Positions 11,670 to 33,550 of a stretch of 64,000 nt of DNA are shown in pieces (position 1 is the first letter of the stretch; the number at the start of each line of letters is the position of its first letter). The notes beneath the pieces are model-generated. The model searched no databases. It had not been told where the DNA came from and was given only the letters and a program-made list of their open reading frames with translations. A program made the position numbers and the translations under genes. Origin of the DNA: Alienimonas californiensis (GTDB taxonomy: Bacteria; Planctomycetota; Planctomycetia; Planctomycetales; Planctomycetaceae); contig NZ_CP036265.1 in assembly GCF_007743815.1 (NCBI RefSeq), forward strand, positions 248,001-312,000, read 5' to 3'.

Positions 11670-11817
11670 CCAAGAGTCTCCGAGGATCGAATCAGGCCGA
11701 TGGGTTCTTTGCGGGAAGTGTGATCGCTCCCCGCAGCGTTGTCGACCGGCCGCCGATACCCGGGCACGGTCTTCGGGGCACGGGCTTCGGGGCATGGCCC
11801 CGGGGGGAGGACGCTCG

Positions 11818-16838: not shown

Positions 16839-17570
16839 TCAAGCGGTTACTGACGGGTAGAGACGACTCAGTTTAATTCGCGCGTCGGCCGTCGTGAACT
16901 GCCACCGGACCGTCGCCCCCGCCGCGTTGCGGGCCGCGACCCAGGCCTCGATCTCACGCCGCAGCGTCTCGATCCCGCCCAGTCGCCGGCGGCCCAGACA
17001 CTGCCGCACCATCGCGGAGAACTCGCACTCCACCACGTCGAGCCAACTGCCGTGCACCGGCGTATAAATAAACTCGACGCGGTCCGCCAGTCGCCGCGCC
17101 TCGGCGGCCGGATATCGTTCGTAGAAAGCGGACGCCGTGTGCGTGTTGAGGTTGTCGCACACGATCCGGACGACCTCGGCGTCGGGATAAACCTCGTCGC
17201 ACAACTCGCGGACGATCTCGGCGAACTCCAGCCGCCGCCGCTGCGGCCGGACCCACGCTCTGCGCCACGCCCGCAGGGGCTCGAAGGCTAAAAACGCACA
17301 GCAGAGCCCGCCCCGGACGTACTCGCAGTCCTGCCGCGCGTCGGCGCCGGGCCGCATCGGCAGCGGGTCGCGGCCCTCGCCGACCAACGCGCACGGCCGC
17401 TCGTCCAGGCCCACGACCGGCCGCTTGGGGTCGCGGGGCTCGGCATAGACGTCGAGCGTCCGCTCCATATCCGCCACGAACGCCGCGCTCCGCCCCGGCG
17501 GAATTACCCACTGCTTGACCCGGTGGGGCCGCAACACGTTTTTTTCAGCGTTTGCCGCACGGTTTCGCAA
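16839..17570 (-). CDS. IS630 transposase, C-terminal frame (orfB, DDE)
   Basis: Encodes the DDE catalytic part read after a -1 frameshift from orfA: VVGLDERP supplies the first Asp, VRIVCDNLNTHTASAF the second, and HGSWLDVVECEFSAM the final Glu. The listed start is the frame's own first Met and is probably not used alone. The stop lies about 10 bp inside the left end of the element. Confidence 0.82.
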   Translation of the reverse strand: MRNRAANAEKNVLRPHRVKQWVIPPGRSAAFVADMERTLDVYAEPRDPKRPVVGLDERPCALVGEGRDPLPMRPGADARQDCEYVRGGLCCAFLAFEPLRAWRRAWVRPQRRRLEFAEIVRELCDEVYPDAEVVRIVCDNLNTHTASAFYERYPAAEARRLADRVEFIYTPVHGSWLDVVECEFSAMVRQCLGRRRLGGIETLRREIEAWVAARNAAGATVRWQFTTADARIKLSRLYPSVTA

Positions 17571-17992
17571 CTGACGGGCCCGTCGAGCCAGCCTTCGGCG
17601 ACGCCGAGGGAGACGTAGCGGTCGGCGAGCAGCCGCACCGTCCAGGCGGCCCGGCCCGCGGGCGGCTCCGAACAGGCCAAGGCGACCAGGTGCGCCTCGG
17701 CGGCGCCGTCGATCTTGGGCTGGCGTCGCGGTCCGCCTCTGCGGACGCGCAGGGCCTGGTCGAGCCCCTCCTCGACGAACCGCTTGCGGGTCCGCGCGAC
17801 GGTGGCGGGGCTGCAGCCGACCGCGGCGGCCACGCGCTCGTCGTCCCAGGCGGGGCCGTCGTCGGAGGCGTCGGCGAGCAGCAGCGTGCGGGCGTGCCGA
17901 ATCGCCCGCGCGTGGGAGCGCCCCGTGCGGGTCAGGTCGTCGAGGCGGTCGCGCTGCGCGTCGGAGAGGGAAACGGCGTACTTGGCGGACAT
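17504..17992 (-). CDS. IS630 transposase, N-terminal frame (orfA, HTH)
   Basis: 162 residues starting at MSAKYAVSLSDAQRD. Helix-turn-helix region (RVAAAVGCSPATVARTRKRFVEEG) binds the IS ends. The frame ends just past an A7 tract (CTGAAAAAAACGTG on the minus strand near 17540), where a -1 shift joins it to the DDE-encoding frame to give VRQTLKKNVLRPHRVKQW. The same arrangement occurs in the IS630 copy at 37948. Confidence 0.85.
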   Translation of the reverse strand: MSAKYAVSLSDAQRDRLDDLTRTGRSHARAIRHARTLLLADASDDGPAWDDERVAAAVGCSPATVARTRKRFVEEGLDQALRVRRGGPRRQPKIDGAAEAHLVALACSEPPAGRAAWTVRLLADRYVSLGVAEGWLDGPVSCETVRQTLKKTCCGPTGSSSG

Positions 17993-18145
17993 GGCGGTAA
18001 AATCGGTCGAGGCGGTGCGTCCCAACCTAGCAGTAACCGCTTGACGCTGCACTTAGTACTACAGTTGCACGTTGGCCGGCGTGCGGCGACAGTTTGAGCG
18101 GCGGGGGAGTCGTTCTCAAGGATCTGAGAGGGCGTGTGAGAAGCG

Positions 18146-18541
18146 TCAGTCCAGCCTCCGGAGCATGAGGTGGATCATGGCGATTTGCACGAACGCTTCG
18201 CTGGAGGCGGTCGTGTACTCGTAGTCCTTCGACAGCCGCCGGCACTTGCCCAGCCACGCGAACGTCCGCTCCGCCACCCACCGCCGCGGCAACAGTTCCG
18301 AGCCCTTCGACTTCCGGCGGACGATCTCGACCCGCCAGAGCGTGTTCGCCGCGACCCAGCCCACGAACCGCCCGGCGTACCCGCCGTCGGCCCAGATCAG
18401 CCGCAGCCGGCCGAAGGAGGCGGTCGCCTTCGCCATGACGCGCTCGCCGCCGTCGCGGTCCTGTACGTCGGCGCCGTGCACCACGACCGCCAACAGCAAG
18501 CCTATCGTGTCCGTCAGGACGTGCCGCTTACGACCCTTCAC
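18146..18541 (-). CDS. IS5-family transposase, C-terminal frame
   Basis: 131 residues containing KGRKRHVLTDTIGLLLAVVVHGADVQDRDG, the second catalytic Asp in LIWADGGYAGRF, and the Glu in WVAERTFAWLGKCRRLSKDYE. It joins the upstream frame through the A6 tract near 18545. Together the two frames make a full-length IS5 transposase. Confidence 0.85.
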   Translation of the reverse strand: MKGRKRHVLTDTIGLLLAVVVHGADVQDRDGGERVMAKATASFGRLRLIWADGGYAGRFVGWVAANTLWRVEIVRRKSKGSELLPRRWVAERTFAWLGKCRRLSKDYEYTTASSEAFVQIAMIHLMLRRLD

Positions 18542-18923
18542 ATTTTTTCCCCGTGTCGTAGCCGCTCTCGCCGCCCCGATCGGTCGTCTTCACGCTCTGG
18601 CTGTCGATCGCCCCGGCGCTCGGCTCGGGGTTCCGGCCGGCCCGTCGGCGTACCCGCTCCCGCAGCCGGGCGTTCATCCTCTCCCACACGCCCTCGTCGC
18701 GCCACTTGCGGAAGTAGTACCAGACGGTGCCCCACGGCGGGAAATCGTGCGGCAGCAGCCGCCAGGAGCAGCCGGTGCGGTCGACGTAGAGGATCGCGCT
18801 AACGACCTCCCGCATGTCCGCCGAGCGGGGTCGCCCGCCGGGCTTGGCCTTGGGGACGTGCGGCCTGAGCCGCTCCCACTGGGCGTCGGTGAGATCGGTG
18901 GAGTAGGCGGGTCGGTCCGTCAT
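18528..18923 (-). CDS. IS5-family transposase, N-terminal frame
   Basis: 131 residues, beginning MTDRPAYSTDLTDAQWERL, the typical start of two-frame IS5 elements, with WRLLPHDFPPWGTVWYYFRKW and the first catalytic Asp in GAIDSQSVK. It ends after GYDTGKK at an A6 tract; a shift to the +1 frame is needed to continue into the second frame. Confidence 0.85.
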   Translation of the reverse strand: MTDRPAYSTDLTDAQWERLRPHVPKAKPGGRPRSADMREVVSAILYVDRTGCSWRLLPHDFPPWGTVWYYFRKWRDEGVWERMNARLRERVRRRAGRNPEPSAGAIDSQSVKTTDRGGESGYDTGKKCEGS

Positions 18924-18982
18924 ACCACGACCCTACGGGCCGCCGCCCGCCTCCTCCAGCCTTCTCACACGCTCTCTGAGGG

Positions 18983-20218
18983 GTGGCTGCGGTTCGCGTT
19001 CGGGAGGCGCTTCGGTGGGCCCGCGAGGTCGACGCCGCGGCCAGGCGGATCGGGCCGCGGTTCCGGCGGCCGGAGTTGCGGGGTCGGGCCGGGCAGTACC
19101 TGCGGGGCCTGATCAGTCGGGTCGAACGCAAGAACGGCTGGCAACTCGCCGAGGAGGTCGGCGAGTCCAAACCGACGAACCTGCAGCACTTCATCGCCCG
19201 GGCCCGCTGGGACGCCGACGCGGTGCGGGACGACCTGCGGGGCTATGTCCTCGAGCGGCTCGGCGACCGATCGAGAGCCGAAGAAGCCGTGCTGATCGTG
19301 GACGAGACCGGCTTCCTGAAGAAGGGGACCAAGTCCGTCGGCGTGAAGCGCATGTATTCAGGCACGGCCGGCCGTATCGAGAATTGCCAGATCGGCGTCT
19401 TCTTGGCCCTGCGCACTCCCCGCGGCCACGCGCTGATCGACCGGGCCCTGTACCTGCCGCAGGAGTGGGCCGAGGACGCCGAACGCCGAACCGCCGCCAA
19501 GATCCTCGCGGACGTCGAGTTCGCGACCAAACCCGCCCTGGCCTATGCGATGGTCGAGCGGGCGTTGGACGCCGGCGTCCCCTGCGGCTGGGCGACCGCG
19601 GACGAGGCCTACGGCGGGGATTATCGGTTCCGGCGGCTGCTGGAAGATCGCGGCGTGGGCTACGTCGTCGCGGTCTCCAGGGCGCAGCGGCTGTGGACGC
19701 CGGACCTGCAGCAGTTGAAGGTCGAAGAGTACGTGCGGGAGTTCGCCGGCGACTCCGACGGCGAGGCTTGGGAGGAGCTGTCCTGCGGCTTCGGGACGAA
19801 GGGGGAGCGACGCTACCGCTGGGCGGCACTGCGGCACAGCGCGCCGCTGGAGCGGGAAGACGGTGTCGTCTTTCGCAGGGCGTTGTTGGTCCGCGAAAGC
19901 CTCGGCGCGTCCGAGACGGGCGTTTGCGAGCGGGCCTATTATTTCACCTGCGCCCCGGAGGGAACGACGCTGCAAAAGCTGGCCGAGATCGCCGGCAGCC
20001 GCTGGGCGATCGAGGAGTGCTTCGAGCAGGCCAAGCAGGAGACGGGGCTGGACGAGGACGAGGTCCGGAGTTGGGACGGCTGGCATCGGCACGTGACGCT
20101 GTCGATGCTGGCGCACGCCACCTTGGCGGCGATTCGGGCCAAGGCCGCGGACGCCCCCAAAAAACGGACGAGAAAGCGAACGAAGCCGCCTGCGACAATG
20201 CGGGCGACAACGACCTGA
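18983..20218 (+). CDS. IS701-family transposase (first frame; C-terminus continues in the -1 frame)
   Basis: 411 residues from GTG 18983, which lies only two bases after the nested IS5 target duplication, so a few N-terminal residues may be missing. Conserved blocks include RFRRPELRGRAGQYLRGLIS, VERKNGWQLAE, LIVDETGFLKKGTKSVGV (first Asp), GWATADEAYGGD (second Asp) and RWAIEECFEQAKQETGLDEDE (Glu). The family C-terminus (LIPLTVPEIRRVL ... WSRWRRRHQ) is encoded from about 20165 to 20400 in the -1 frame. The change occurs at CCCCCAAAAAACGG near 20156, a plausible -1 slip site; otherwise it is a frameshift mutation. The second-frame stop at 20398-20400 falls inside the right inverted repeat. Confidence 0.8.
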   Translation: MAAVRVREALRWAREVDAAARRIGPRFRRPELRGRAGQYLRGLISRVERKNGWQLAEEVGESKPTNLQHFIARARWDADAVRDDLRGYVLERLGDRSRAEEAVLIVDETGFLKKGTKSVGVKRMYSGTAGRIENCQIGVFLALRTPRGHALIDRALYLPQEWAEDAERRTAAKILADVEFATKPALAYAMVERALDAGVPCGWATADEAYGGDYRFRRLLEDRGVGYVVAVSRAQRLWTPDLQQLKVEEYVREFAGDSDGEAWEELSCGFGTKGERRYRWAALRHSAPLEREDGVVFRRALLVRESLGASETGVCERAYYFTCAPEGTTLQKLAEIAGSRWAIEECFEQAKQETGLDEDEVRSWDGWHRHVTLSMLAHATLAAIRAKAADAPKKRTRKRTKPPATMRATTT

Positions 20219-20418
20219 TCCCACTGACGGTTCCCGAAATCCGTCGCGTGCTGGTGAGATTAATCTTCGGCCGCAGGCGCTGCGACGAGGCCGTTCTGGC
20301 GTGGTCGCGGTGGCGCCGGCGGCATCAATACGCCGCCATGCTCTGCCACTACAAAGCCCGCGGCCATACCGCTCCCCGGGTCACTGACGTGCAACTGTAG
20401 TGCTAAAGCGAACCGCGA

Positions 20419-21031
20419 TCAGGCGTAGCGTGTATAGCCGCAGTGGCGGAGATAGTTCCGGCACTCGGACGGCGGAAAGCGGTCGAGCAGTTCGCCGATG
20501 CGGCGCCACAGCCCCTCGACCGTCCGCTCGCCCGCGGCCCGGATCAGACGCTTGAGCTTGCTGAACAGCAGTTCGATCGGGTTCAGGTCGGGGCTGTACG
20601 GCGGCAGGTACCGCGCCTTCGCACCGACGGCCCGGATCGCCTCCGCCACGCCCGCCACCTTGTGGGCGGAGAGGTTGTCCATCACCACCACGTCGCCGCG
20701 GCGCAGGACCGGGCACAGGTGTTGCCGGACCCACGCCAGAAACAGCGGCCCGTCGATCGCCCCGTCGACGACCAGCGGGGCGACCGGACCGTCGGCCCGC
20801 AACCCGCATAAAAACGTCGTGGTGCGCCAGTGGCCGTGCGGCACGGACGCCAGCAGCCGGCGTCCCCGCGGCGCCCAGCCGCGGGTCGGGGTCATGTTCG
20901 TCTTGGCCCACGTCTCGTCCAGAAAGACCAGCCGCCCGGCCCGGAAGCCGCCGCGGGCCCGCCGCCAACGCCGCCGGGCGTCGGCGACGTCGGGGCGGGT
21001 TTGCTCGCAGGCGATCAGCGTCTTTTTTTGT
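20419..21031 (-). CDS. IS630 transposase copy B, C-terminal frame (DDE)
   Basis: Reads from the slip site as KTLIACEQTRPDVADARRRW, then LVFLDETWAKTNM (first Asp), VVVMDNLSAHK (second Asp) and SPDLNPIELLFSKLK (Glu). All three catalytic acids are present, so the element may still be active. No good start codon lies at the slip site; the first Met is at 20895. Confidence 0.8.
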
Positions 21032-21359
21032 AGCGAAAGCCGAGCCGGCGGAGTTCTCGCCGCAGCGTCTCCGCCGAGCAGCCCAGGCCCAGATCGGCCT
21101 TCAGCTGCCGCACGGTGCGGTCGGTTCGGGCGTTCATCGCCGCGACGATCTCCGCCTCCCGGCCGGCCAGAACCCGCGTCCGTCCCGGCGCGGTCCGGGC
21201 GGCGGGGACCTCGCTGACGCCGCTCTCCCGGCGTCGCTGGACCAGTCGCCGCACCCAGGCGGGACTGACGGCGAAACGGTCGGCCACGACCTTCGTCGGC
21301 TCGCCGGCGTCGCGGGCGGCCAAGACGCGTTCCCTCAGGTCCTCCGAATACGCACGCAC
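21015..21359 (-). CDS. IS630 transposase copy B, N-terminal frame
   Basis: Starts at GTG 21359 (VRAYSEDLRERVLAARDAGE, the usual IS630 beginning) and contains the HTH ADRFAVSPAWVRRLVQRRRE. It ends RYKKRR at an A7 tract (21022-21028); a -1 slip continues into KTLIACEQTRPDV of the DDE frame. Confidence 0.83.
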   Translation of the reverse strand: MRAYSEDLRERVLAARDAGEPTKVVADRFAVSPAWVRRLVQRRRESGVSEVPAARTAPGRTRVLAGREAEIVAAMNARTDRTVRQLKADLGLGCSAETLRRELRRLGFRYKKRR

Positions 21360-21552
21360 CGACTCGACTCCGTGAGCGGGATGGACGCCGACATTTTGCC
21401 GTCGCCCCATCCGCTACGCCACACCTGGGTTTGCTCTAGCAAGTCGACAGCATGCTCGAACATTCTCTCTCGCATCTTATTGCCCAGAGGCGGGCAGCAA
21501 CGCCGAAGACACTTTGCAGCCCACGTCCGCAGAGAATGAGCGACGCTAACTA

Positions 21553-22749
21553 GTGTCCCGAGTTAGAAGTTCGCAGCTACTTTCCCGGCGGCCGGGACGG
21601 ATAATGGGCGATCGCGAAGCCCGAAGGAGGTTGCGATGCCATGGCGTGAACCGATGGAGATCACGGCGGAGGAACGGGCGGCGTTGGAACGCTGGGCCCG
21701 TCGGCCGAAGACCGCCCAGGCGCTGGCGCTGCGCAGCCGGATCGTGCTGGCCTGCTCGGATCCGGCACGCACCGGACGCCGGCAGACCGACGTCGCCGTC
21801 GCCAAGGATTTGGGCGTGACCAACACGACCGTCCACAAGTGGCGCACCCGGTTTGAGGTCGACCGGCTCGACGGCCTCTCCGACGAACCCCGCTGCGGGG
21901 CCCCCCGCAGAATCACCGACGAGCAGGTGGAGGCGGTCGTCACGCGGACGCTGGAGTCGACGCCGGAGAACGCCACGCACTGGAGCACCCGCGGGATGGC
22001 GACGGCGTCTGGCCTGTCGCAGACGGCCGTCTCGCGGACCTGGCGGGCGTTCGGCCTGAAGCCCCACCTGTCGGAGACGTTTAAGCTCTCCAAGGACCCG
22101 CAGTTCGTGGAGAAGGTCCGCGACGTCGTTGGCCTGTACCTTGCGCCGCCGCAACACGCGATCGTGCTCTCGGTCGACGAGAAGAGCCAGTGTCAGGCGC
22201 TCGAGCGTTCGGCGCCGGTCGAGCCGGTGCGGCCCGGGCGGCCGGAGTCGCACACGCACGATTACGTCCGGCACGGGACGACGAGCCTGTTCTCGGCGTT
22301 GAACGTGGCCACCGGCGAGGTCGTCGGCAAGTGCATGCGGCGCCACCGCAGCGCGGAGTTCGTGCGGTTCCTCAATCCAGCTCGACGCGGCGATTCCCCG
22401 AACGGACGCGGAGGGCGAGGCCGTCGAACTGCACGTGATCATGGACAATTACGCCACGCACAAGACCGACCGGGTGCGGCGGTGGTTTGCCAAGCGGCCG
22501 CGGTCTCACGGGCGCTTCACGCCGACCGGAGCCTCGTGGATCAACCAGGTCGAGCGGTTCTTCTCGGAACTGACGACCAAACGGCTGCGGCGGGGCGTGT
22601 TCAAAAGCGTGCCGGCGTTGGAGCGGGCGATCAACGACTACGTCGCCCAACACAACCGGAACGCCAAGCCGTTCGTGTGGACGGCCGACGCCGATTTAAT
22701 CCTCGACCGCGTCCGCAGAAAATGCGAACGAACTTCCAACTCAGGACAC
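21553..22749 (+). mobile_element. IS630-family element, copy C, with TA target duplication
   Basis: Inverted ends of about 23 bp start GTGTCCCGAGTTAGAAGTTC at 21553; the right end reads GTGTCCTGAGTTGGAAGTTC on the complement, ending at 22749. TA at 21551-21552 and 22750-22751 is the duplicated target. The 112 bp between copy B and this copy holds no recognisable gene. Confidence 0.88.
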
Positions 22750-22752
22750 TAG
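21636..22752 (+). pseudogene. IS630 transposase copy C, broken by a one-base frameshift
   Basis: Preceded by GAAGGAGG, it begins MPWREPMEITAEERAALERW and keeps the HTH and first Asp (IVLSVDEKSQCQALER) in one frame. At about 22375 an extra C shifts the frame: the expected QLDAAIPRTDAEGEAVELHV and MDNYATHKTDRVRRW (second Asp) and NQVERFFSELTTKRLRRG (Glu) lie in the next frame, ending at 22752. The stop codon uses the TA of the target duplication. There is no A-tract at the junction, so this is a mutation or sequence error rather than programmed slippage. Confidence 0.8.
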
Positions 22753-22758
22753 AGGTGC

Positions 22759-23547
22759 TTGAGGAAGAGCGACCGATTGCGGTTTGGGTTCCTGCTTGAA
22801 GCGGGGGGGGCGAACGTGGAAGATCAGCAGCCCGCCCCGCGCACCAATGTCGCGGCCCCTCCCCCACCGCCCCGCCAACCTGTGTCCGCTCGCCATTGCT
22901 CGCGCCGTCGAACGTGGATCGCAGTGTTGGTTGCGTTGTGGTTCGTTCCGGCCTCCGCGGAATCCGCTGCGGCCGGACCGGTTATTTCCCTCTTCCGCTC
23001 GATCGAGCGGGATCTGGGACGCTTGCGTCCATTTCAGCCGGACGTCGTCGTCTGCCCCCCTCAGCAGATCACGTTCGGTCCCGTCCCGCCGATCATGTGC
23101 TGCGTGCCGCTCTCGTCGATCGACGGGGCCGCGACGACGGGTGATGAAGCCGCCGGCGCCACAGAATCGGCCGCGGGCTTTGCGGGTGGAGCGTCCGCCG
23201 CCGCAGGCGGCGGCGTGATGAGCGGAACCGGCGTGGTCGGCACGTTCGGTTCGACGATGGGCTCCCTCGGAGTGCCGGGCGGAGGCGGTCTCGCCGGCGG
23301 CGGCGCCGGGGCGGGCGGATTCGGAGGCGGGGCGGGCGGCTTCGGCGGGGCCGGGGTCGCGGCGTTCGGTCCCGCCTCCTTCTCGGGCGATCCCGGCGGC
23401 GGCTCACCGGGACCAGGAGATCCGCCGCTGACAGTTCACCCGACCCCGGAGCCGACCTCCGTCGCATTGGCGACGCTCTGGGGCATCGGCCTGCTGGCCG
23501 GGAAGGGACGGCGTTTCAGGGATCTGGCGGTCACGCGCGGCCAATAA
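22759..23547 (+). CDS. Gly-rich secreted protein with PEP-CTERM-like anchor
   Basis: 262 residues from TTG 22759; GTG 22816 (after a G-rich stretch) is an equally likely start. A signal segment, RRRTWIAVLVALWFVPASA, precedes a secreted part with a Cys-containing stretch (VVVCPPQQITFGPVPPIMCC) and a long Gly/Ala/Phe-rich repeat region near 140-225. The C-terminus is a PEP-CTERM-type sorting signal: PTPEPTSVALATLWGIGLL, then a basic KGRRFR. An exosortase would cut this and attach the protein outside the cell. The IS630 copy C right end is eight bases upstream, so the native promoter or N-terminus may have been displaced. Its TAA overlaps the ATG of the next gene (TAATG). Confidence 0.62.
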   Translation: MRKSDRLRFGFLLEAGGANVEDQQPAPRTNVAAPPPPPRQPVSARHCSRRRTWIAVLVALWFVPASAESAAAGPVISLFRSIERDLGRLRPFQPDVVVCPPQQITFGPVPPIMCCVPLSSIDGAATTGDEAAGATESAAGFAGGASAAAGGGVMSGTGVVGTFGSTMGSLGVPGGGGLAGGGAGAGGFGGGAGGFGGAGVAAFGPASFSGDPGGGSPGPGDPPLTVHPTPEPTSVALATLWGIGLLAGKGRRFRDLAVTRGQ

Positions 23548-25976
23548 TGGCGGCTTCCCAAGTTCCGCAGATCCTGTTGACATCATCACTGCTGGCCGAG
23601 GAGCGTCGCGGGAACGGGTTTGCGGACCGCCCGAAGCTTCTGCCCCGGCTGGTCGCAGTCGCGGCACTGATCTTGTGGGCGACTGGCACCGCCGACGCGG
23701 ACGTCATGACGGTGGGATCAGACGCCGAGTTGCGGCGGGCGCTGTCGGACGCGGGCCCCGGCGACACCGTTCTAATTCTCCCCGGCGAGTACCGGGGCGG
23801 CATCCGTTGGTCCCCCCGCGGTGAGCCGGGGCGACCGATCACGCTCGCGGGCACTAATCGAGACGATCCACCTGTTTTCCGAGGCGGGTTCGAAGTATTC
23901 AGACTGCATCGCCCCACGCACACCGTGCTGCGCGACCTCATCATCGAAGGGTCCGGCGACAACGGACTCAACGCGGATGATAGTGGACGTCGGGATCAAC
24001 CCGCGGGACCGCTAACTCTCCAGAGGATCACCTCGCGCGACAGCGGCGGCCGGGGGAATCACGACGGATTCAAGCTGACCGGGATCGATGACTTGAAGAT
24101 CGTCGACTGCACCGTCTCCGGGTGGGGACGGGGGGGACAGGGAATCGACTTGGTCGGCTGTCATAACGTAATCGTTCGTGGCTGCCGAATCGACGGCGGG
24201 GGGAAAAGTGCTGTCGGCCTCCAAGCGAAAGGCGGTAGCCGAGACGTTCTCTTCGCTGACTGTCGGGTCGAGGGCGTGACGGAGCGGTGCGTGAACGTCG
24301 GCGGCTTAACAGGCGACCAGTTCTTCCGGCCGCCCGGAGCGACTGCGGAAGCGACGGAAGTACGCGTGCTTGGCTGCGAGTTAGTCGGCGCGAGTGCCGC
24401 GGTGGCCTTCATCGGTTCGGACAGCACTCGCGTCGAGAATTGCGTGCTCTACCGCCAAACCCGCTACCCGATCCGCATCCTCCGGGAAAACAACGGCGAG
24501 CGGATGGTTCCGACTCGGGGGGGTGAGTTCGTCGGCAACACCGTCGTTTGGCACGACGGGGACTTATTGACGTTCGTGAACGTCGGCGCCAACTCCCGTC
24601 CGGAAACCTTCACATTCGCCGGAAACATCTGGTACTGCGTCACTCACCCGGCCCGCAGCACGCCGAGCGGACTTCCGGTTGAGGAAGTCAGCGGCGTATA
24701 CGGCGTCGATCCAAAACTGAAGGACCCGCCGCAGAATCTCACGCCGACCCGCCCGGCGGCGGATCTTCATAAAGAGGCCTCTGTCCGTGCCGAACGGCAT
24801 CGCCTGCGACTGACTGTCGCGGCCGTACTGACGCCGCTGGCGTTGGGGATCCTTTGGTGGCTGCACCGGACGGCGGCGAGAGCGATTCGGCCGCGGCCCG
24901 TCACCACCGACGCCCGTTTCGCCGCCCCCCCGCCCCGCCGCTCACACGCTGTTTTTGCGCTGGCCGGTTGGATCTCGCTGATGGCCGCCGCCTCCCTGGC
25001 ACCGTTCTCGCCGGCCGATGGCGGATCGTGGCTGAGCGTGGATTGGGGCACCACGTTCCGTCGCTTCGCCGACCTGCCCTTCGACGCTGAGGCGATCAGC
25101 AACGTCGACTGGACGGTTAACACCCTCGCGGGCGTGCCACTGGGGTTCTTCGCGGTTGCCGTCGCAATGATCGGGCGTGGGTTCGGCCGCCCCGGCGGCG
25201 CCTTTTCCGTCGAACGTCGTTCGCTGTTCTGGAGTATTACGGGAGTCGTCGCGGCCATCGGTGGTTCGGCGGCACTCGCGTTCATCCTAGAATCATCGCA
25301 GCTGCTGCTTGAAGGTCGGACATCGACGAAATACGACCTTTACGCTCAGGTTTGCGGGGCCGTCATGGGGGTGGCTGCTTGGTTTGCCGTTGGCCCGTCC
25401 GCGACCCAGTGGGTGAAAAAGCGGCTGAGTCGCTCCAGAGCGGTCCGCACGCTCCAGCCGATTGACTTCGCGGCGGTTATCGCGGTCGCACTCGTCGCGG
25501 TGTGGACGCTTCGGCCGTTCGATCCGCTCGTTCATCCCGTCGACCTTTATCACAAGCTGCAGGGAGGCGGTTTCCGCCCCGTGCCCTTCGGCCCCGGCTG
25601 GACGGTCGAGGATTTCACTTGGTCGGTCCTGCGGGCGGTGCCGTTCGGTTTGTTGGCGGCGATCTTCTGGACGCCCCCAGATCGGCCGACACGCACCTTC
25701 CGGCCGGCGTGGGTGGTAGGTCTTGTCGCCGCCGCCGCATTGGAGGGCGGGCAGTTCTTCGTCCGCGGGCGGGTTTGCGACGTCACGGACGTGCTGGCGG
25801 CCGCCGTCGGCGCCGCCGTGGGAGCAAGCCTTGCGTCCGTCTTCGCGCGTTCCCCGTTCCTGACGCCGGTGCCGATGGCCGGGCGGGGACTGAATGTGGT
25901 CCGCTGGACCGTCGGCGTCGGGCTCGCCTCCGTCGCCTGCCTGATTTACGCGGGCTCCGTCGACTCGCTCGGCTGA
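23547..25976 (+). CDS. Parallel beta-helix protein fused to a duplicated VanZ-like membrane domain
   Basis: 809 residues. After an N-terminal hydrophobic segment (about 32-51), residues 52-390 form a right-handed beta-helix of the chondroitinase-B/pectate-lyase superfamily type (SDAELRRALSDAGPGDTVLI, then repeated strands ending NVIVRGCRI, DVLFADCRV, EVRVLGCELV, TRVENCVLY). A membrane helix lies near 412-434, followed by two VanZ-like halves: one ends ESSQLLLEGRTSTKYDLYAQ (about 580), the other EGGQFFVRGRVCDVTDVL (about 731), matching the ExxQ...GR...D pattern. It is translationally coupled to the PEP-CTERM gene, which suggests a joint role at the cell surface. A polysaccharide-lyase-like or binding role is inferred. 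Its 3' end overlaps the convergent GT gene by 31 bp. Confidence 0.75.
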   Translation: MAASQVPQILLTSSLLAEERRGNGFADRPKLLPRLVAVAALILWATGTADADVMTVGSDAELRRALSDAGPGDTVLILPGEYRGGIRWSPRGEPGRPITLAGTNRDDPPVFRGGFEVFRLHRPTHTVLRDLIIEGSGDNGLNADDSGRRDQPAGPLTLQRITSRDSGGRGNHDGFKLTGIDDLKIVDCTVSGWGRGGQGIDLVGCHNVIVRGCRIDGGGKSAVGLQAKGGSRDVLFADCRVEGVTERCVNVGGLTGDQFFRPPGATAEATEVRVLGCELVGASAAVAFIGSDSTRVENCVLYRQTRYPIRILRENNGERMVPTRGGEFVGNTVVWHDGDLLTFVNVGANSRPETFTFAGNIWYCVTHPARSTPSGLPVEEVSGVYGVDPKLKDPPQNLTPTRPAADLHKEASVRAERHRLRLTVAAVLTPLALGILWWLHRTAARAIRPRPVTTDARFAAPPPRRSHAVFALAGWISLMAAASLAPFSPADGGSWLSVDWGTTFRRFADLPFDAEAISNVDWTVNTLAGVPLGFFAVAVAMIGRGFGRPGGAFSVERRSLFWSITGVVAAIGGSAALAFILESSQLLLEGRTSTKYDLYAQVCGAVMGVAAWFAVGPSATQWVKKRLSRSRAVRTLQPIDFAAVIAVALVAVWTLRPFDPLVHPVDLYHKLQGGGFRPVPFGPGWTVEDFTWSVLRAVPFGLLAAIFWTPPDRPTRTFRPAWVVGLVAAAALEGGQFFVRGRVCDVTDVLAAAVGAAVGASLASVFARSPFLTPVPMAGRGLNVVRWTVGVGLASVACLIYAGSVDSLG

Positions 25977-27127
25977 GCGAGCCGGAACTTTACCACCAGT
26001 TCGTCGTACGCCGCCGCGACGCGGTCCATGCGGGCGGCGAAGCTGTAGCGGGTCTCGACCGTCGCCCGGCCCTCCTCCCCCAAGCGGCGACGCTGGACTT
26101 CGTCGTCGGCGAGTCGCGCCAGTGCCGCCGTCAACGCAGGCGTGTCGGCGGGGGGGACGAGTAGGCCGGTCTCGCCGTCGGCGATCAGGCGGGGGACGCC
26201 GGCGATGGCGGTGGCGGCGACGGGGAGCCCGCGGGCCATCGCCTCCAGCACGACGTTCGGCAGACCCTCCCGCAGGCTGGAGAGACAGAATGCGTCCGCC
26301 GCGGCGAGCAGGTCGTTCACGTCGGTGCGGTAGCCGAGCAGCCGGAACCGGGCGGGCTTCGGGAGGGCGTCGATCCGCGTTTGGAGGGCCGCCCGCTCCG
26401 CGCCGTCGCCGGCGATGAGGAGCTCGGCGTCGACGCCGTCCGCCCGCAGGGCGGCGACGGCGTCGATCAGTCGGTCGAACGCCTTCTCCGGGTTCAGCCG
26501 TCCCACGCCGAGGACCACGAACCGCCCCTCCGGCAGGTCCAGCCGCTCCCGTGAGGCGGCTCGCTCTGCGGCGGTCGGCGGGCGGTTGGCCTCCACGTCG
26601 ATCGCGTTCTCCACCAGCTCCAGCCGGTCCCGCCGCAGGCCCGCCGCGGCGCACTCCTCCACCAGGTCCGGCGAGACGCAAAGAATCCGGCGGTAGAACC
26701 GCAGCGCCGCCTTGTCGATCCGCGTGTACAGCGGCATGCGACCTGTTTTGTCCACCCAGCCGTGGACCGTCGTGACCAATTCCATGCGGTGGAACGGACG
26801 CACCAGCAGGCCCAGCACGTTGCTCTTGTAGTCGTGCCCGTGCCAGATCCGGACCTCCCGCTCCCGGCACAGCCGCACCAGCGAACGCACGACCGACAGG
26901 TCTCGCAGCCCGCGGTCCGGCATGGCGACGATCTCCGTGCCGGCCGCCCGGCCGCGGCGGCGGAGGTCCTCGATGCCAGGATCGCCCGGCGGGTGCAGGA
27001 AGACGCACAGCCCCGCGTAGCCGCGGTCGGCTAGCAGGCGGGGGGAGTTTAGGATCGTCTTCTCCGGCCCCCCGCCCGTCCCCGTCACCACCCGCACGTG
27101 CAGGACCACGGGGGAAGCGACCGGCAC
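25946..27127 (-). CDS. Glycosyltransferase family 4 (GT-B)
   Basis: 393 residues. N-terminal GT4 half with GTGGGPEKTILNSPRLLADRG and WHGHDYKSNVLG; C-terminal donor-binding half with VVLGVGRLNPEKAFDRLI and EGLPNVVLEAMARGLPV (the E-x7-E motif of retaining GT4 enzymes). Transfers a sugar from a nucleotide donor to a growing glycan on the cytoplasmic side. It has no close operon partner: upstream is a 446-bp divergent region, downstream a convergent gene. A decayed copy of its central and N-terminal coding sequence lies at about 28870-29181, so this gene was duplicated in the past. Confidence 0.9.
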   Translation of the reverse strand: MPVASPVVLHVRVVTGTGGGPEKTILNSPRLLADRGYAGLCVFLHPPGDPGIEDLRRRGRAAGTEIVAMPDRGLRDLSVVRSLVRLCREREVRIWHGHDYKSNVLGLLVRPFHRMELVTTVHGWVDKTGRMPLYTRIDKAALRFYRRILCVSPDLVEECAAAGLRRDRLELVENAIDVEANRPPTAAERAASRERLDLPEGRFVVLGVGRLNPEKAFDRLIDAVAALRADGVDAELLIAGDGAERAALQTRIDALPKPARFRLLGYRTDVNDLLAAADAFCLSSLREGLPNVVLEAMARGLPVAATAIAGVPRLIADGETGLLVPPADTPALTAALARLADDEVQRRRLGEEGRATVETRYSFAARMDRVAAAYDELVVKFRLAQPSESTEPA

Positions 27128-27573: not shown

Positions 27574-28752
27574 ATGAAGTTTCCCCGCCCTTGCCGACCG
27601 CACGCCTTCGCGCGGCGGGGCTCCGTCCGCACCGGCTTCACGCTGATCGAACTGCTGGTCGTGATCAGCATCATCGCGGTGCTGATCTCGCTGGTGGCCC
27701 CCGCCGTCCAACAGGCCCGCGCCGCCGCCCGGCTGATGCAGTGCCAGAACAATGTTAAGCAGATTACGCTGGCATTGACCAATAAGGCCACCAGCGACAG
27801 CGGCAAGCTGCCCCATATTCGCGACGGCGTCTACCGCCTCGCCCCCGCGTCCGCCGGGGCCGCCGGCGCCGATGCCGCCGTCGGGGCCCGCAATACGTGG
27901 CCGCGGGCGATCCTGCCGCAGATGGACGCCCGGTCGCAGGATCGGACGATCAACAGCCTCGAAGAACTACACCTGACGGCGGCCACCGCGGCGCCGTTCA
28001 CGAACAGAATCGCCGTGCTCGGCCTCGGCACCGGCCAGATTAAGAGCTACATCTGCCCGGATGACAGCGCCAATAGTGGCGCCAACTTCGGTCTGAGCTA
28101 CCGAGCCAACGGCGGCTACTTCGTCGATAGCATCGTGCCGAACGTCGACGGCACGGGCTCGGATCCCGGGTCTCATCGACCAAACAGCTACACTTGGGTC
28201 GTGGCTGGTGCTTTAGCACCCAACAAGACTGACGTTCATTTAAAGTCCGGGGCGATGCATAACCCAATTGGCGGCGATGTCGACGCTGCGGGCGGCGCCT
28301 CGGCCCAGCTGACTCTCGATCAGATCGGCAACTGGGACGGCACAACGAACACGATGTGGATCTCCGAGAACGACACCGCCGCCAACTGGCTGAACGACAA
28401 CACCTTCGGCCTCGCCTTCGGAGCCGTACTCCCGGACGACGGATGGGTTGTAGAATTTCCAGGCGACTCCGCCCCCGCAGGCCCGTACGGAACGTTCACC
28501 GAGCCCGGCAGGCCGAACGCAAAGTTTAACAGTAACGTGCCGCGGCCGCGGCCGTCGTCGGAGCACTCCGGCGGGGCGATCATCGTCGGCTTCTGCGACG
28601 GGCGGGCAACCAGCTTCAACGATACGATCGCCCGCGACGTGTACCTCCGATTGATCTCCAGCGGCGGATCGACTTTAGTGTTCCCCCGAAATGGGGGTGC
28701 GCGCTCTGGGATGCCGCTGCAGGCCCCGGTTAGTTCCTCCGACTACGATTGA
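27574..28752 (+). CDS. DUF1559 prepilin-like protein with N-terminal methylation motif
   Basis: 392 residues. After a basic leader, [19 protein letters not shown] is the type IV prepilin/type II pseudopilin processing site (cut between Gly and Phe), followed by the planctomycete-typical [25 protein letters not shown]1559 (SBP_bac_10) body follows, with [10 protein letters not shown]-like and [12 protein letters not shown] segments and a C-terminal [17 protein letters not shown], the conserved FCDG motif. Planctomycetes carry dozens of these; they are exported and likely form pseudopili or surface structures, but individual roles are unknown. It sits alone between a divergent GT4 gene and a terminator-like hairpin. 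Confidence 0.92.
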
Positions 28753-28849
28753 ACCTCGCCGGACCCTTCGGCTCCCGCGCCGTGGTCGGGTAACCGGCCG
28801 CGGCGCTTTCGTGCGCAGAGGACGGCCCCCGACATGGGAACTTGCGGCC

Positions 28850-28882
28850 GGACCGGCGGTCCTACCGGCCCGGTCCCTTTTT
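28850..28882 (+). terminator. Rho-independent terminator after the prepilin gene
   Basis: GGACCGGCGGT (28850-28860) pairs imperfectly with ACCGGCCCGGTCC (28864-28876) and is followed by TTTTT at 28878-28882. It lies about 100 bp after the prepilin stop. Confidence 0.5.
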
Positions 28883-29181
28883 CGGGTTCAGCCGTCTCAC
28901 GCGGAGGACGCTTAACGGGTCCGCCAGTAGGTCCAGTCCCCCCGGGCAGCGGCTCGCTCCGCGGTCGTCGGCGGGCCAAGCCGCCGCAAGCTCAACCACA
29001 TGTCCACCTGATCCAGCCCGCAGCGCAGCGCGTTCTCGAACTCCTCCGCAAAGCCTGGCGAGACGCGCCGATAGAGCCGCAGTACTGCCTTGTTAATCGC
29101 ACGAAGGCTCCGCCGATCGGCACGAACTCGATTTCCGTCCCTGCCATCAAAACGCGTCGTCAGCGGCCAGACAAGCAGCAC
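28876..29181 (-). pseudogene. Decayed duplicate of the neighbouring GT4 gene
   Basis: On the minus strand this stretch still reads INKAVLRLYRRVSPGFAEEFENAL and GPPTTAERAAARGDW, against IDKAALRFYRRILCVSPDLVEECA and RPPTAAERAASRERL in the intact GT4 gene at 25946-27127. At DNA level the block TTCAGCCGTCTCACGCGGAGGAC at 28885 lines up with TTCAGCCGTCCCACGCCGAGGAC near 26497. Several frameshifts and the absence of the rest of the gene show it is a remnant, not a functional gene. Confidence 0.6.
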
Positions 29182-29228
29182 CCGGCGGTGGACGGCGATG
29201 GGGCCAAGGAAACGGCAGTAAAATTGTA

Positions 29229-29257
29229 AAAGGGCGGGGCGTCGCCGCCCCGCCCTT
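29229..29257 (-). terminator. Rho-independent terminator of the PEP-CTERM gene
   Basis: Perfect 12-bp stem AAGGGCGGGGCG (29230-29241) and CGCCCCGCCCTT (29246-29257) with a 4-base loop. Read on the minus strand it is followed by TTTACAATTTTA. It lies 24 bp past the stop of the PEP-CTERM gene. Confidence 0.8.
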
Positions 29258-29280
29258 GAGATATCGAGCGGCAGAAACCG

Positions 29281-29877
29281 TCAGACAGCTGAGGGAATCT
29301 GCTTCCGGCGCCGACCTCCAAAAACCATCCCGCACGCCGTTAGCCCGAGCAAAGCGAGAGACGCCGGTTCCGGCACAGCGGAACCCTCAACCGACTCCTG
29401 CTGATAATCGATCTGCGCCTGCACGAAATCTCCGCCCCCAGGAATCTGATTTACCCGGTCGCCGAATTCGAAGATTAAGGCAAAGGTTCCACCAGAACTG
29501 AACGGAGAGCCGATAAATATAGAGGCTGTACCAACGTTCGTACCGTCGACGCCTACATCGTTGGCCGTGTTAAACGTAAAACCATCGTCCGTGGTGACAC
29601 TGTTCAGGATGTTCCCCAACGACACGCCCCCAAAGGTAATCGAGGCGAATTCGGGATCACCGGCCGCAAAACTCTGCAGGCCGAAGTCACCAAATAGCGT
29701 GAGCGTCAAAGTCGCCAGACTGCCTGCTTTCGGATTGTTCAGCGTGAGACTGGTTACAACATCGTCAGCAGTGCCTGGATTCCCGGAGAAGGTAAGACTG
29801 ATCGGGCCAGTCGTCGACATGGCAGCTGACGCTGATCCGGCGAAGCCAATCACGGCAATAGCGGCCAGTACCGTCAT
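29281..29877 (-). CDS. PEP-CTERM sorting-domain protein
   Basis: 198 residues from ATG 29877; the frame is open to an upstream ATG at 29958, but the signal peptide (MTVLAAIAVIGFAGSASA) starts at 29877. The exported part is rich in Gly, Ser, Thr, Asn and Phe with beta-strand character (TLTLTLFGDFGLQSFAAGD, GFTFNTANDVGVDGTNVGT). The C-terminus is canonical: VPEPASLALLGLTACGMVFG, then RRRKQ. It would be processed by an exosortase of the XrtA type and released or attached together with the exopolysaccharide. It has its own strong terminator, so it is probably transcribed alone. The function of the exported part is unknown. Confidence 0.88.
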   Translation of the reverse strand: MTVLAAIAVIGFAGSASAAMSTTGPISLTFSGNPGTADDVVTSLTLNNPKAGSLATLTLTLFGDFGLQSFAAGDPEFASITFGGVSLGNILNSVTTDDGFTFNTANDVGVDGTNVGTASIFIGSPFSSGGTFALIFEFGDRVNQIPGGGDFVQAQIDYQQESVEGSAVPEPASLALLGLTACGMVFGGRRRKQIPSAV

Positions 29878-30015
29878 CTTCAAGAGGGAGATCACTAGCA
29901 GGAGCGGGATTGGGGGGCAGGATGGGGTGCAACCGGAGACTACGCTCGTGGATCGCACCGCGTGAGGGCCATATCTGTCGTTGAAGCGACGCTGAGAATA
30001 AGCCTTGACTCGCCT

Positions 30016-31224
30016 TCATGCCAGCGCAAACGTTACGAACTTTTCAGTCCGTTTCTCCCAAGAAACATCGATCAAAAAGGTGGACCAGATCGTCCGCTCC
30101 ACGTGGCTCAACGAGGGGTTCAGGCGATGCACAACCCCGTTGACAAACGCCGGGGGGTCAGCGGCGAGGTCGCAGGCGCCGGCGTAAGGAAGCGTCGCCG
30201 GCAAATCCCGCACGACCACCGGCTTGCCGCAGGCGAGGTACTCCAGCAGTTTGAGCGGCTGCATCGCCCGGGTGACGGGTGCGTCGCGGTAGGGCATCAC
30301 CAGCACGGCGGCCGCCGCGGCGAGGGCGGGCAGCGTGGCGTGCGGGACGGCGGGGATCCGCAAGACGTTCGGGCGGTTCGTCAGCTCCGGCGGTTCGTCC
30401 TGCCCCGGGCCGACGAGGAGCACGGTCGCCGGGCGGGGGGAGTTGGGGCCGACGGCGTCGGCGATTGCGTGCACCGCCTCGACGTCCAGCCGGCGATCAA
30501 TTAGTCCCCAGAACACCACCAGCGGCCCCTCCGGCAGCCGATGCGGGAACGGAACTTTCGGGTTCGACCAGAACTCCAGATCGACGCCGTGCTCCACCAC
30601 GTGCACCTCCGCCCGCCGCTCCATCGTCATCAGCCGGTCGCGGAGCCCCGGGCCGGCGGCGACGAGACGGTCGGCCTTCGCCACCACTTCCCGTTCCAGT
30701 TCCCCCGCCGTCGCCCCGTCCACGCCGGGCCAGACGGAGAAATCGTCCACGCAATAATAAATCCAGCGGTCGACCGGCAGCGCCCCGACCAGCGGGGCCA
30801 TAACCGGGACTGTGGTGATCGCCGCGACAGGGCCGTCCCGCCGGGCCTCTTCAATTGGTCCGACGAGCTGCCGGGCGAGCAGTTGGCGGTTCAGGCGACG
30901 GTCGTGGGGGCGACGGAACCAGGGCCACATCTTTGGGTTTAATACCGTCGGCTCCGGCCCGGCGTCGGCGGGTGCCGAAGCGGCTCCCCCGCCGCCCGTC
31001 CAATGGCGGAACTTGCCGGCGGCCCGGGTGACGGTGGCGAGGTCCAGCCGCGGCGGGCGGAGACCGATCGTGTTCACCCAGAGGACGCGGTGATCGTCCA
31101 GAAGATGCCGCACGATGTGCTGGCAGCTGGAGGGGTGCCGGCCCCAGTCGTCGCTGAAGACGACGAGAGTGTGAAATTGTGATCGGGCGGCGGGCGGCGG
31201 GTCAACTTCGGGAACTTCCGTCAC
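30016..31224 (-). CDS. Glycosyltransferase (GT-B fold, TuaH/GT4-like)
   Basis: 402 residues from GTG 31224, which overlaps the stop of the FemAB-like gene as GTGA. The longer open frame upstream runs through that gene and is not used. VFSDDWGRHPSSCQHIVRHL at the N-terminus, WIYYCVDDFSVWPG in the middle, and LLEYLACGKPVVVRDLPATL near the C-terminus fit glycosyltransferases that act late in exopolysaccharide synthesis. Third gene of a three-gene unit (GT4, FemAB-like, this gene) that is often found near XrtA systems. Donor and acceptor are not known. Confidence 0.82.
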   Translation of the reverse strand: MTEVPEVDPPPAARSQFHTLVVFSDDWGRHPSSCQHIVRHLLDDHRVLWVNTIGLRPPRLDLATVTRAAGKFRHWTGGGGAASAPADAGPEPTVLNPKMWPWFRRPHDRRLNRQLLARQLVGPIEEARRDGPVAAITTVPVMAPLVGALPVDRWIYYCVDDFSVWPGVDGATAGELEREVVAKADRLVAAGPGLRDRLMTMERRAEVHVVEHGVDLEFWSNPKVPFPHRLPEGPLVVFWGLIDRRLDVEAVHAIADAVGPNSPRPATVLLVGPGQDEPPELTNRPNVLRIPAVPHATLPALAAAAAVLVMPYRDAPVTRAMQPLKLLEYLACGKPVVVRDLPATLPYAGACDLAADPPAFVNGVVHRLNPSLSHVERTIWSTFLIDVSWEKRTEKFVTFALA

Positions 31225-32279
31225 GGAATCCCTCGCACAATCTTCGGCCCCAGTCGATTCGCGATCGGCAGCGGGAGTTTTTTCCAAGCCTCCACCGCCA
31301 AACGGAAACCGCCGGCCTCGGGGCTGAGGCCGCCGGGTTCGCCCTTCCGCACGTGGAACTGCCAGCAGGCGGGGTGCGGCTCGGCCCCCCACTGCTTCTT
31401 AAACCGATAGGTGGGCGAATCGACCGTGCTCCGGCCGAAGTCGAACTCGCCGGCCCCCCGCCCGACCGCCCGGTCGAGCAGCTGCCAGTACATCGCCATG
31501 TTCACTCCGGCCGGATTGTAGGCCCGCAGCGTACTGGCGCTCGGCACCGCCGTGCGAATGGCCCCGTCAGTCCCGGGCTGATCGTGAATGAGAAGCGCCC
31601 CGGCGACGGGCTTTGGACCGTCGAAGCCGACGCACACTTCTGCGTCGCCGTCAAACTCCGTCAGAATCGCGGCGAACAGTTCCCGACCAAAAACCGGGGT
31701 GCCGAGGTCCCGCATGTTCTCGGCGAAGACGGCGTGAAAGTCGTTCAGCACCTCCTCCCCGCCCCACCGGAAGGTGACGTCGGTCTCCAGACACTTTCTA
31801 AGCTGCGACCGCCGCTTGCTCTTGAATGAGGCCATCAGGGCCTCTTCGTCGCCCGGTAGGCGCAGCCGCATGTGCACCTTGTGGGAGAGCCGGTGCGTGA
31901 GGGCCGGGTGATCGACCGGCGCCTCGTGCCGCAGTTCGAGCCATTTCGCGTCGTACTCCGCGGCGAGGGCGACGGCGGCGTCGATCAGCGGACCGAACGC
32001 CGTCGGGCCACCGGTCGCTCCCGCGGTATTGACGTACGGCAGGGCGACGGCGAATCGCCCGAACAGCCGCGACCGCGTCAGGCAAAGCGGCAGATGGGCA
32101 ATGGGTCGGCCGTCACAGCCGGGAACGGTGAGCAGGACCGGCTCGTGCCGGAACGCCGCAGCCAGCACCCGCAGCCAGCGTTTGTCCCGCCGCAAGGCGG
32201 GTCCGTCCGCGGAGTCCGCGGCGACATCAGCCAGTGTCGTTTGCGCTGAAGAAACCGGCGGCGGCGGGGCGTGAGGCAT
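31221..32279 (-). CDS. FemAB-like GNAT protein of the XrtA/PEP-CTERM system
   Basis: 352 residues. A two-domain GNAT fold is suggested by PYVNTAGATGGPTAFGPLI, LMASFKSKRRSQLRKCLETDVTF and the C-terminal FDFGRSTVDSPTYRFKKQWGAEP, which resembles the FemAB-related family tied to PEP-CTERM/exosortase loci (TIGR03019-type). FemAB enzymes move aminoacyl groups from tRNA to cell-envelope acceptors; whether this branch does so is not established. The start at 32279 lies 74 bp after the upstream GT4 stop, and the end overlaps the next gene. Its presence is one of the main signs that an XrtA-type export system is active here. Confidence 0.82.
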   Translation of the reverse strand: MPHAPPPPVSSAQTTLADVAADSADGPALRRDKRWLRVLAAAFRHEPVLLTVPGCDGRPIAHLPLCLTRSRLFGRFAVALPYVNTAGATGGPTAFGPLIDAAVALAAEYDAKWLELRHEAPVDHPALTHRLSHKVHMRLRLPGDEEALMASFKSKRRSQLRKCLETDVTFRWGGEEVLNDFHAVFAENMRDLGTPVFGRELFAAILTEFDGDAEVCVGFDGPKPVAGALLIHDQPGTDGAIRTAVPSASTLRAYNPAGVNMAMYWQLLDRAVGRGAGEFDFGRSTVDSPTYRFKKQWGAEPHPACWQFHVRKGEPGGLSPEAGGFRLAVEAWKKLPLPIANRLGPKIVRGIP

Positions 32280-32353: not shown

Positions 32354-33550
32354 TCAGTCCGCCCGCCGCCCGTGCGAGGCGGCCATCTGTTGATAGAGCT
32401 CGGCGTAGGCCTCGACCATGCGGTCCTCACCGAACCGCTCGAACGCCCGCCGCCGCCCGACGGTGCCGAGCGTCGCCGCGGCGGCCGGAGCGTCGGCGAA
32501 CTCGCGGAGGGCGGCCCCCAGTGCCGCCGCGTCCCCGGCCCCCGCCAACCGACCGCACGACTCCACCCGCGCCCCGCCAAGAACTTCTCGCAACCCGCCG
32601 ACGTCCGTGGCGACGACCGGTCGTCCGGCGGCCATCGCCTCGATCACCGTCAGCGGGATGCCCTCGGAAACGCTGGTCAGCAACCCACAGTCCGCCGCCG
32701 CCCAAAGCCGCGGCACGTCCCGCCGCAGCCCGGCGAGCGTAACGAAGTCGCCGGCCCCCTCCGCCCGGATCACCTCTTCAACTCGCCCCCGCTCCGGTCC
32801 CTCGCCGACGACGAGCAGGCGAACGCGGCGGCCTTCCGCCCGATTCGCCTCGCGGACGGCCCGCACGGCGGTCGCGTGGTCCTTGATCGGGTCCAGCCGG
32901 GCCACCTGCACGGCGAGGAAGTTGTCGTCGGGCACCCCGAATTCCCCCCGCACCGCCGCCCGATGCTCCGCGGCCGCCGCGTCCGGCTCGGCGGCGTAGG
33001 GGGCGAGATCAACGCCGTTGTAAATGACGCGGATGCGCTCGGCCGGCAGGCCTTCGTTGTCGATCAGCGCCCGCTTCACGCCCTCCCCTACGGCGACCAC
33101 CCGATCCCGCCGACGCAGCGCCAGCCGGTTGAACGCGGCCCGCTTGCGGCTCGGCAGGTCCGGATGAAACCGCCCGTGCTCGGTGAACAGGATTGGCGGC
33201 CCCCCAAGTGCCCGCCGTGTCGGGGGCAACCGCGACAGTGCGGCGTAGACGAACGGTGTGTACTGGTGAGCGTGGAGCAGGTCGACCCGCCGGTCCGCGG
33301 CCCATTCTCGCACTCGCCGCGCGCACCGCAGATCCAGCCCCGCCCTCCGGTCGAGCGTCTCGACGGGATGCCCCGCCGCGGCGAGCTCCTCCGCCATCGT
33401 CCCCGCCCGGTCCAGACAGGCAAACGCGAACCGCACCCGCGGCCCCGCCCCCGCCGGAGCCAACGCCGCCGCCGTCCGCGCCACCAACACCTCCGCCCCG
33501 CCCACATCTAAGCTATGCAGGAGAACGCCGATGGTGGGGAGGACAGACAT
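32354..33550 (-). CDS. Glycosyltransferase family 4, XrtA-locus type
   Basis: 398 residues. LLHSLDVGGAEVLVARTAAAL opens the acceptor half (family GGAE motif); LLHAHQYTPFVYAAL and TEHGRFHPDLPSRKRAAFNRL follow. The donor half contains QVARLDPIKDHATAVRAVRE and SEGIPLTVIEAMAAGRPVVAT (the E-x7-E motif). It resembles GT4 proteins of PEP-CTERM/exosortase loci (TIGR03088-like) but this is inferred. First gene of a unit that continues with the FemAB-like protein and another glycosyltransferase. Upstream lies the IS-rich island, so its promoter must be within 33551-33900. Confidence 0.88.
   Translation of the reverse strand: MSVLPTIGVLLHSLDVGGAEVLVARTAAALAPAGAGPRVRFAFACLDRAGTMAEELAAAGHPVETLDRRAGLDLRCARRVREWAADRRVDLLHAHQYTPFVYAALSRLPPTRRALGGPPILFTEHGRFHPDLPSRKRAAFNRLALRRRDRVVAVGEGVKRALIDNEGLPAERIRVIYNGVDLAPYAAEPDAAAAEHRAAVRGEFGVPDDNFLAVQVARLDPIKDHATAVRAVREANRAEGRRVRLLVVGEGPERGRVEEVIRAEGAGDFVTLAGLRRDVPRLWAAADCGLLTSVSEGIPLTVIEAMAAGRPVVATDVGGLREVLGGARVESCGRLAGAGDAAALGAALREFADAPAAAATLGTVGRRRAFERFGEDRMVEAYAELYQQMAASHGRRAD

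Follow-up and report, generated by a model that had tools for sequence, protein, structure and literature searches.

The window analysed here, 64,000 nucleotides of Alienimonas californiensis (NZ_CP036265.1, positions 248,001 to 312,000), encodes an 809-residue protein (P0002; 23547..25976, + strand, ATG start) in which a beta-helix is joined by a transmembrane (TM) helix to two consecutive VanZ copies. In our best reading, to which we give about an even chance, P0002 is an inner-membrane, outward-facing exopolysaccharide (EPS) processor, which would cut or sense a polymer and, coupled to this, act on the polymer's lipid-linked end. The beta-helix/VanZ fusion type is already described. The present locus adds a tandem VanZ, an enzyme-like beta-helix and an XrtA-type EPS block.

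The open reading frames of P0002 and of the Gly-rich P0001 (22759..23547, + strand, 262 residues, TTG start) were confirmed, together with the TAATG through which the stop of P0001 overlaps the start of P0002. Along P0002 follow an N-terminal hydrophobic secretion helix (residues about 31–52, 23637..23702), the beta-helix domain (~53–395, 23703..24731), a TM helix (~422–440, 24810..24866), VanZ copy 1 (~469–620, 24951..25406), VanZ copy 2 (~635–772, 25449..25862) and a C-terminal TM helix (~784–805, 25896..25961), all on the + strand. Hydropathy identifies the secretion helix and both TM helices; the first is also a helix in the AlphaFold model, where the linking TM lies in a helix modelled at residues 404–446 (pLDDT ~80–90). 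In Pfam, Beta_helix PF13229 matches residues 125–249 above its cut-off (E 7e-9), and VanZ PF04892 matches two stretches (E 1e-17, 65.3 bits against a cut-off of 30.1). Each VanZ copy exceeds the PF04892 cut-off separately in a genome scan, is delimited by alignment and, in copy 1, by topology, and contains four hydrophobic helices. The duplication of VanZ claimed in an earlier sequence-only reading therefore stands. The structure model of the VanZ half, folded without an alignment, is of low confidence, so the VanZ fold rests on the profile matches.

Eleven hydrophobic helices were located in P0002, at residues ~31–49, 422–440, 469–487, 524–542, 563–581, 598–616, 635–653, 690–708, 721–739, 749–767 and 784–802. 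The net charges of the successive loops are +5, -4, +2, 0, +5, -1, +2, 0 and +3. Because these charges alternate, both the beta-helix and the conserved ends of the VanZ copies are predicted by the positive-inside rule to lie outside. The modelled arrangement, a secreted domain followed by a TM and outward-facing VanZ, fits the ‘SP + X + TM + lipocone’ scheme.

Modelled by AlphaFold with 62 aligned sequences, the N-terminal domain is a right-handed beta-helix (pLDDT 91.3, pTM 0.90). Its best solved matches in Foldseek comprise the Paenibacillus alginate lyase 6kfn, the epimerase AlgE4, PL6 and PL31 lyases, chondroitinase B, a rhamnogalacturonan lyase and RbmB, a lyase of the Vibrio biofilm matrix. 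Nearly all of the nearest solved folds are polysaccharide lyases, epimerases or hydrolases. These neighbours bear out the earlier description of a carbohydrate-active-type beta-helix. The domain resembles PL6 in the model: it shares with the PL6 lyases (AlyGC, chondroitinase B) and with 6kfn the right-handed fold, the top Foldseek ranks and a profile match in the N-terminal coils. In contrast to these lyases, P0002 is membrane-tethered and shows no significant alignment across the PL6 catalytic region, and the TM-scores are about 0.3–0.58. A PDB profile search with the beta-helix finds the PL6 similarity mainly in the N-terminal coils. The Pfam model of PL6 (PF14592) has no match on P0002, and on its ortholog in a genome of another genus (G334) covers model positions 1–111 only, with 26.8 against 24 bits. 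We thus reject PL6 membership by whole-domain profile, since no more than the N-terminal coils match.

The beta-helix belongs to a family of standalone secreted proteins of ~400 residues that spans Planctomycetota and beyond. These proteins are homologous to P0002 across the whole beta-helix and carry the same invariant residues, whereas the VanZ part is missing from them. Conservation was assessed on the 62 aligned standalone-family relatives, considering polar residues conserved in at least 90%. All family-invariant charged residues are kept in P0002 (D144, D145, D173, K176, D201, K228, R247, R261, E268 and R310), as is the invariant Q226, which makes a decayed scaffold unlikely. P0002 departs from the conserved polar positions at T178, S191, L254, C299, V300, R313 and S350. 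The invariant K228 and R247, candidate counterparts of the catalytic Lys/Arg pair of PL6, lie roughly one coil (about 19 residues) apart.

We compared the two VanZ copies with the VanZ-1 reference motif, which consists of an Asn in H2, ExxQ in H3 and DxDDxxxN in H4. Copy 1 has N525, ESSQ (E582xxQ585) and only the last Asp of the H4 motif (D597), with Q601 in place of the Asn. Copy 2 has S693 at the H2 position, EGGQ (E733xxQ736), D745 and D748, and lacks the terminal Asn. The full DxDDxxxN motif is absent from both copies in the alignment. By the lipocone scheme, copy 1 looks competent from these residues, and copy 2 is possibly altered. To our knowledge, no chemistry has been demonstrated for VanZ, and the chemistry itself is a prediction.

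The surroundings of P0002 are those of EPS assembly, as had been proposed. Convergent with P0002 lies a GT4 glycosyltransferase gene (25946..27127, - strand), followed on the same strand by a GT4-like gene (30016..31392), a FemAB-family gene (31221..32279) and a further GT4 gene (32354..33550). The FemAB gene exceeds the cut-off of the curated model TIGR03019 (280.6 bits against 260.35) and is of the XrtA/PEP-CTERM-associated type in both the source genome and G334. More than one exosortase gene is present in the source genome; one of them, ~4.8 kb beyond the window, scores above the TIGR02602 cut-off and below the XrtA-specific one, and is adjoined by a polysaccharide tyrosine-kinase gene whose score is below its cut-offs. 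On this predicted gene content, the locus qualifies as an XrtA-type EPS/exosortase locus. A PEP-CTERM protein above the Pfam cut-off is encoded at 29281..29958 (- strand) and is a better-supported exosortase substrate than P0001.

A co-occurrence survey and domain search, both suggested by the earlier reading, showed that the fusion recurs. G334 encodes a full-length P0002 ortholog (38% identical), 3' of which lie GT4, GT4, FemAB and GT4 genes in the order and orientation of the window, with identities of 58%, 47%, 56% and 54% to the genes listed above. Relative to G334, a DUF1559 pseudopilin-like gene and the PEP-CTERM gene (27574-29958) are inserted in the block of the window. The full fusion was found in the source genome and G334 only, 2 of the 170 family genomes, and in none further among 398 sampled from the class, so it is inessential for such loci.

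Three other readings of P0002 were weighed. The sequence-only reading had proposed a coupled pair, in which P0002 anchors or decorates P0001 as its dedicated PEP-CTERM surface protein; we regard this as very unlikely. The TAATG overlap, the exosortase genes and the C-terminal tail of P0001 speak for it. This tail (PEPTSVALATLWGIGLLAGKGRRFRD) has the PEP-hydrophobic-basic form and aligns with the clear PEP-CTERM tails VPEPTSMALFGLGGIGLIAGLAKRRRQ of two related genomes. By eye and by the tail alignment, a signal peptide, PEP, a hydrophobic stretch and a basic end are all present, with about nine extra residues after the basic cluster. However, no Pfam or NCBIfam model, the curated PEP-CTERM models included, matches P0001, so of the description as a secreted Gly-rich PEP-CTERM protein, the signal-like helix and the tail hold while a family match is wanting; the PEP-CTERM label is plausible on sequence. 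A codon-usage test left the P0001 frame unconfirmed, and a clear PEP-CTERM gene likewise scored poorly. An IS630-family element (about 21550..22752, + strand; NF033545, 159 bits against a 100-bit cut-off; inverted repeats CTAGTGTCC...) abuts the 5' end of P0001, its right inverted repeat ending 6 bp 5' of the assigned TTG. The signal-like helix begins at about residue 51, and the GTG at 22884, directly 5' of it, is the likelier start. No whole-length homolog of P0001 was found in the 170 family genomes, the congener G298 included (other matches concern the tail or low-complexity sequence), and no P0001-like gene lies 5' of the G334 fusion. A conserved P0001/P0002 pair is rejected on these grounds, and the role of P0001 as a dedicated surface substrate is unsupported. 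In G334 the fusion instead keeps the glycosyltransferase block as its conserved partner. We also notice that transposase remnants (IS630, IS5-like and other) fill ~6 kb of the window (16839-22752), from an MBOAT/338-aa gene pair to P0001.

P0002 could also be a chance gene fusion of little functional meaning, formed when a secreted beta-helix gene ran into an adjoining VanZ gene. The rarity of the fusion (two genomes) is consistent with this idea, and so is a scan of up to 10 kb of sequence on each side of 80 standalone beta-helix loci: no VanZ gene was found, so an operonic precursor is unseen there. The VanZ profile used had been checked on P0002 and on single-VanZ proteins, and we reject an operonic VanZ beside the standalone beta-helix as the precursor of the fusion at these loci. 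Two findings speak against a chance event: two genera have retained the P0002 type (38% identity) together with its EPS neighbours, and a related tandem VanZ is joined, in reverse order, to a beta-helix of a second family. The reverse-order fusion is a 735-aa protein of a third genome (G291), with VanZ x2 followed by a beta-helix that has no BLAST similarity to that of P0002 and also occurs standalone in other genomes. Its neighbours include an XrtA-type glycosyltransferase and an EPS sugar-phosphate transferase, and its VanZ half falls in one group with those of P0002 and the G334 ortholog, at moderate support (85/84). We consider a chance fusion unlikely.

The third possibility is a sensor-type fusion, in which the beta-helix is a non-catalytic polysaccharide binder that regulates VanZ on lipid-linked precursors. 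Burroughs, Nicastro and Aravind (eLife 2025, PMC12419801) list SP + X + TM + VanZ fusions whose X includes an extracellular beta-helix. They count the beta-helix among the ligand-binding X domains and read SP+X+TM+lipocone proteins as sensor-type, which favours this reading for the same architecture. The VanZ partners they describe, linked via a TM, also comprise beta-propeller and lectin-like domains, and FHA domains too. In planctomycetes, tandem VanZ is likewise joined to many X modules (a beta-helix at either end, PHP + Wzy_C, PHP + Wzy_C + acyltransferase, FHA and, by eye, TPR-like repeats), as expected of interchangeable sensors. On the other hand, a pure binder would be expected to lose some of the charged residues that are invariant in the standalone family, yet P0002 keeps every one, including a Lys and an Arg ~19 residues apart. 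A sensor-type fusion is possible, if somewhat doubtful.

The same paper removes the earlier suggestion that this architecture had not been described, since beta-helix + TM + VanZ fusions are already listed there (PMC12419801). P0002 shares with them the order of signal peptide, extracellular X, TM and VanZ, and an EPS neighbourhood typical of VanZ-1. It differs in its two VanZ copies (that paper describes duplicated VanZ-1 elsewhere), its enzyme-like beta-helix of a standalone family and its XrtA/PEP-CTERM EPS locus. Planctomycetes and exosortase are unmentioned in the main text of PMC12419801, and a literature search on VanZ with exosortase or planctomycetes found no relevant VanZ paper. The authors propose that during EPS assembly VanZ works on the head groups of lipid carriers, via release or transfer, and this lends support to an EPS role for P0002.

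In the reading we favour, that of an EPS processor, P0002 probably trims or releases polymer at the membrane. The PL6-like beta-helix would bind or cleave nascent polysaccharide just outside the membrane, and the TM helix would tie it to a VanZ (lipocone) pair with conserved residues that are predicted to face outward too. For copy 1, the probable target is that polymer's undecaprenyl-phosphate-linked end, through phosphoester cleavage or transfer; copy 2 may be less active or have a regulatory role. Chain trimming or sensing would thereby be coupled to release from the lipid carrier. The architecture, the beta-helix fold, the retained polar residues, the conserved EPS neighbours and the sidedness are observed or predicted from sequence; catalysis of any kind, the identity of the substrate and the coupling are inferred. 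Beta-helix enzymes acting on the producer’s own EPS are known in WceF (Pantoea stewartii) and RbmB (Vibrio cholerae), and P0002 resembles them as an EPS-system beta-helix likely acting on a self-made polymer. WceF is a trimeric tailspike-like hydrolase. We know of no VanZ joined to either protein.

The terminal transferases of many exopolysaccharides are unknown, and P0002 couples VanZ with a recognisable polysaccharide-active domain in one EPS locus. This makes it a handle: the polymer could be named from the sugar specificity of the beta-helix, and mutants of VanZ would tell if its target is the lipid-linked end. The fusion of related tandem VanZ to two different beta-helix families strengthens the case for VanZ action on EPS intermediates. 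As a more speculative extension, which we think rather improbable, tandem VanZ in planctomycete EPS loci may be an EPS chain-release or ligase enzyme, to which beta-helix depolymerases were fused on two or more independent occasions, once at each end, as one-protein ‘cut and release’ terminators.

The beta-helix itself is far more widespread than the fusion. P0002 is matched by 55 of 294 phylum genomes, mostly over the beta-helix, and 429 relatives occur in public genomes, the best 80 of which include Armatimonadota, Hydrogenedentota, Verrucomicrobiota and two archaeal MAGs. The two archaeal copies among these 80 (L163, L173) are close relatives in MAGs labelled Brockarchaeota and Bathyarchaeota, possibly through lateral transfer or a binning error. 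The source genome has a standalone paralog (G000:C1:1875309-1876418) that is 60% identical to the P0002 beta-helix, and the congener G298 has a standalone copy only. Outside the genus, a context comparison found no neighbours common to the standalone genes. Relatives of the DUF1559 pseudopilin of the window lie near the standalone paralog in both G000 and G298.

Other tandem-VanZ proteins were noticed in the fetched loci. Giant forms with PHP and O-antigen-ligase (Wzy_C) domains are encoded at L130 7455-12980 (G442), which has an acyltransferase too, and at L129 9212-13975 (G294). A protein with VanZ x3 and two FHA domains (L059 5043-8126) adjoins the VanZ x2 + beta-helix gene of G291. In L128 8288-12538 (G024) and L131 6572-10894 (G392), the tandem VanZ is accompanied by a C-terminal region that is beta-propeller-like by reading and an N-terminal region that is PHP-like with no Pfam match. 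Within the EPS region of the window, an 808-aa GH5 (cellulase-family) protein is encoded at 9369-11795.
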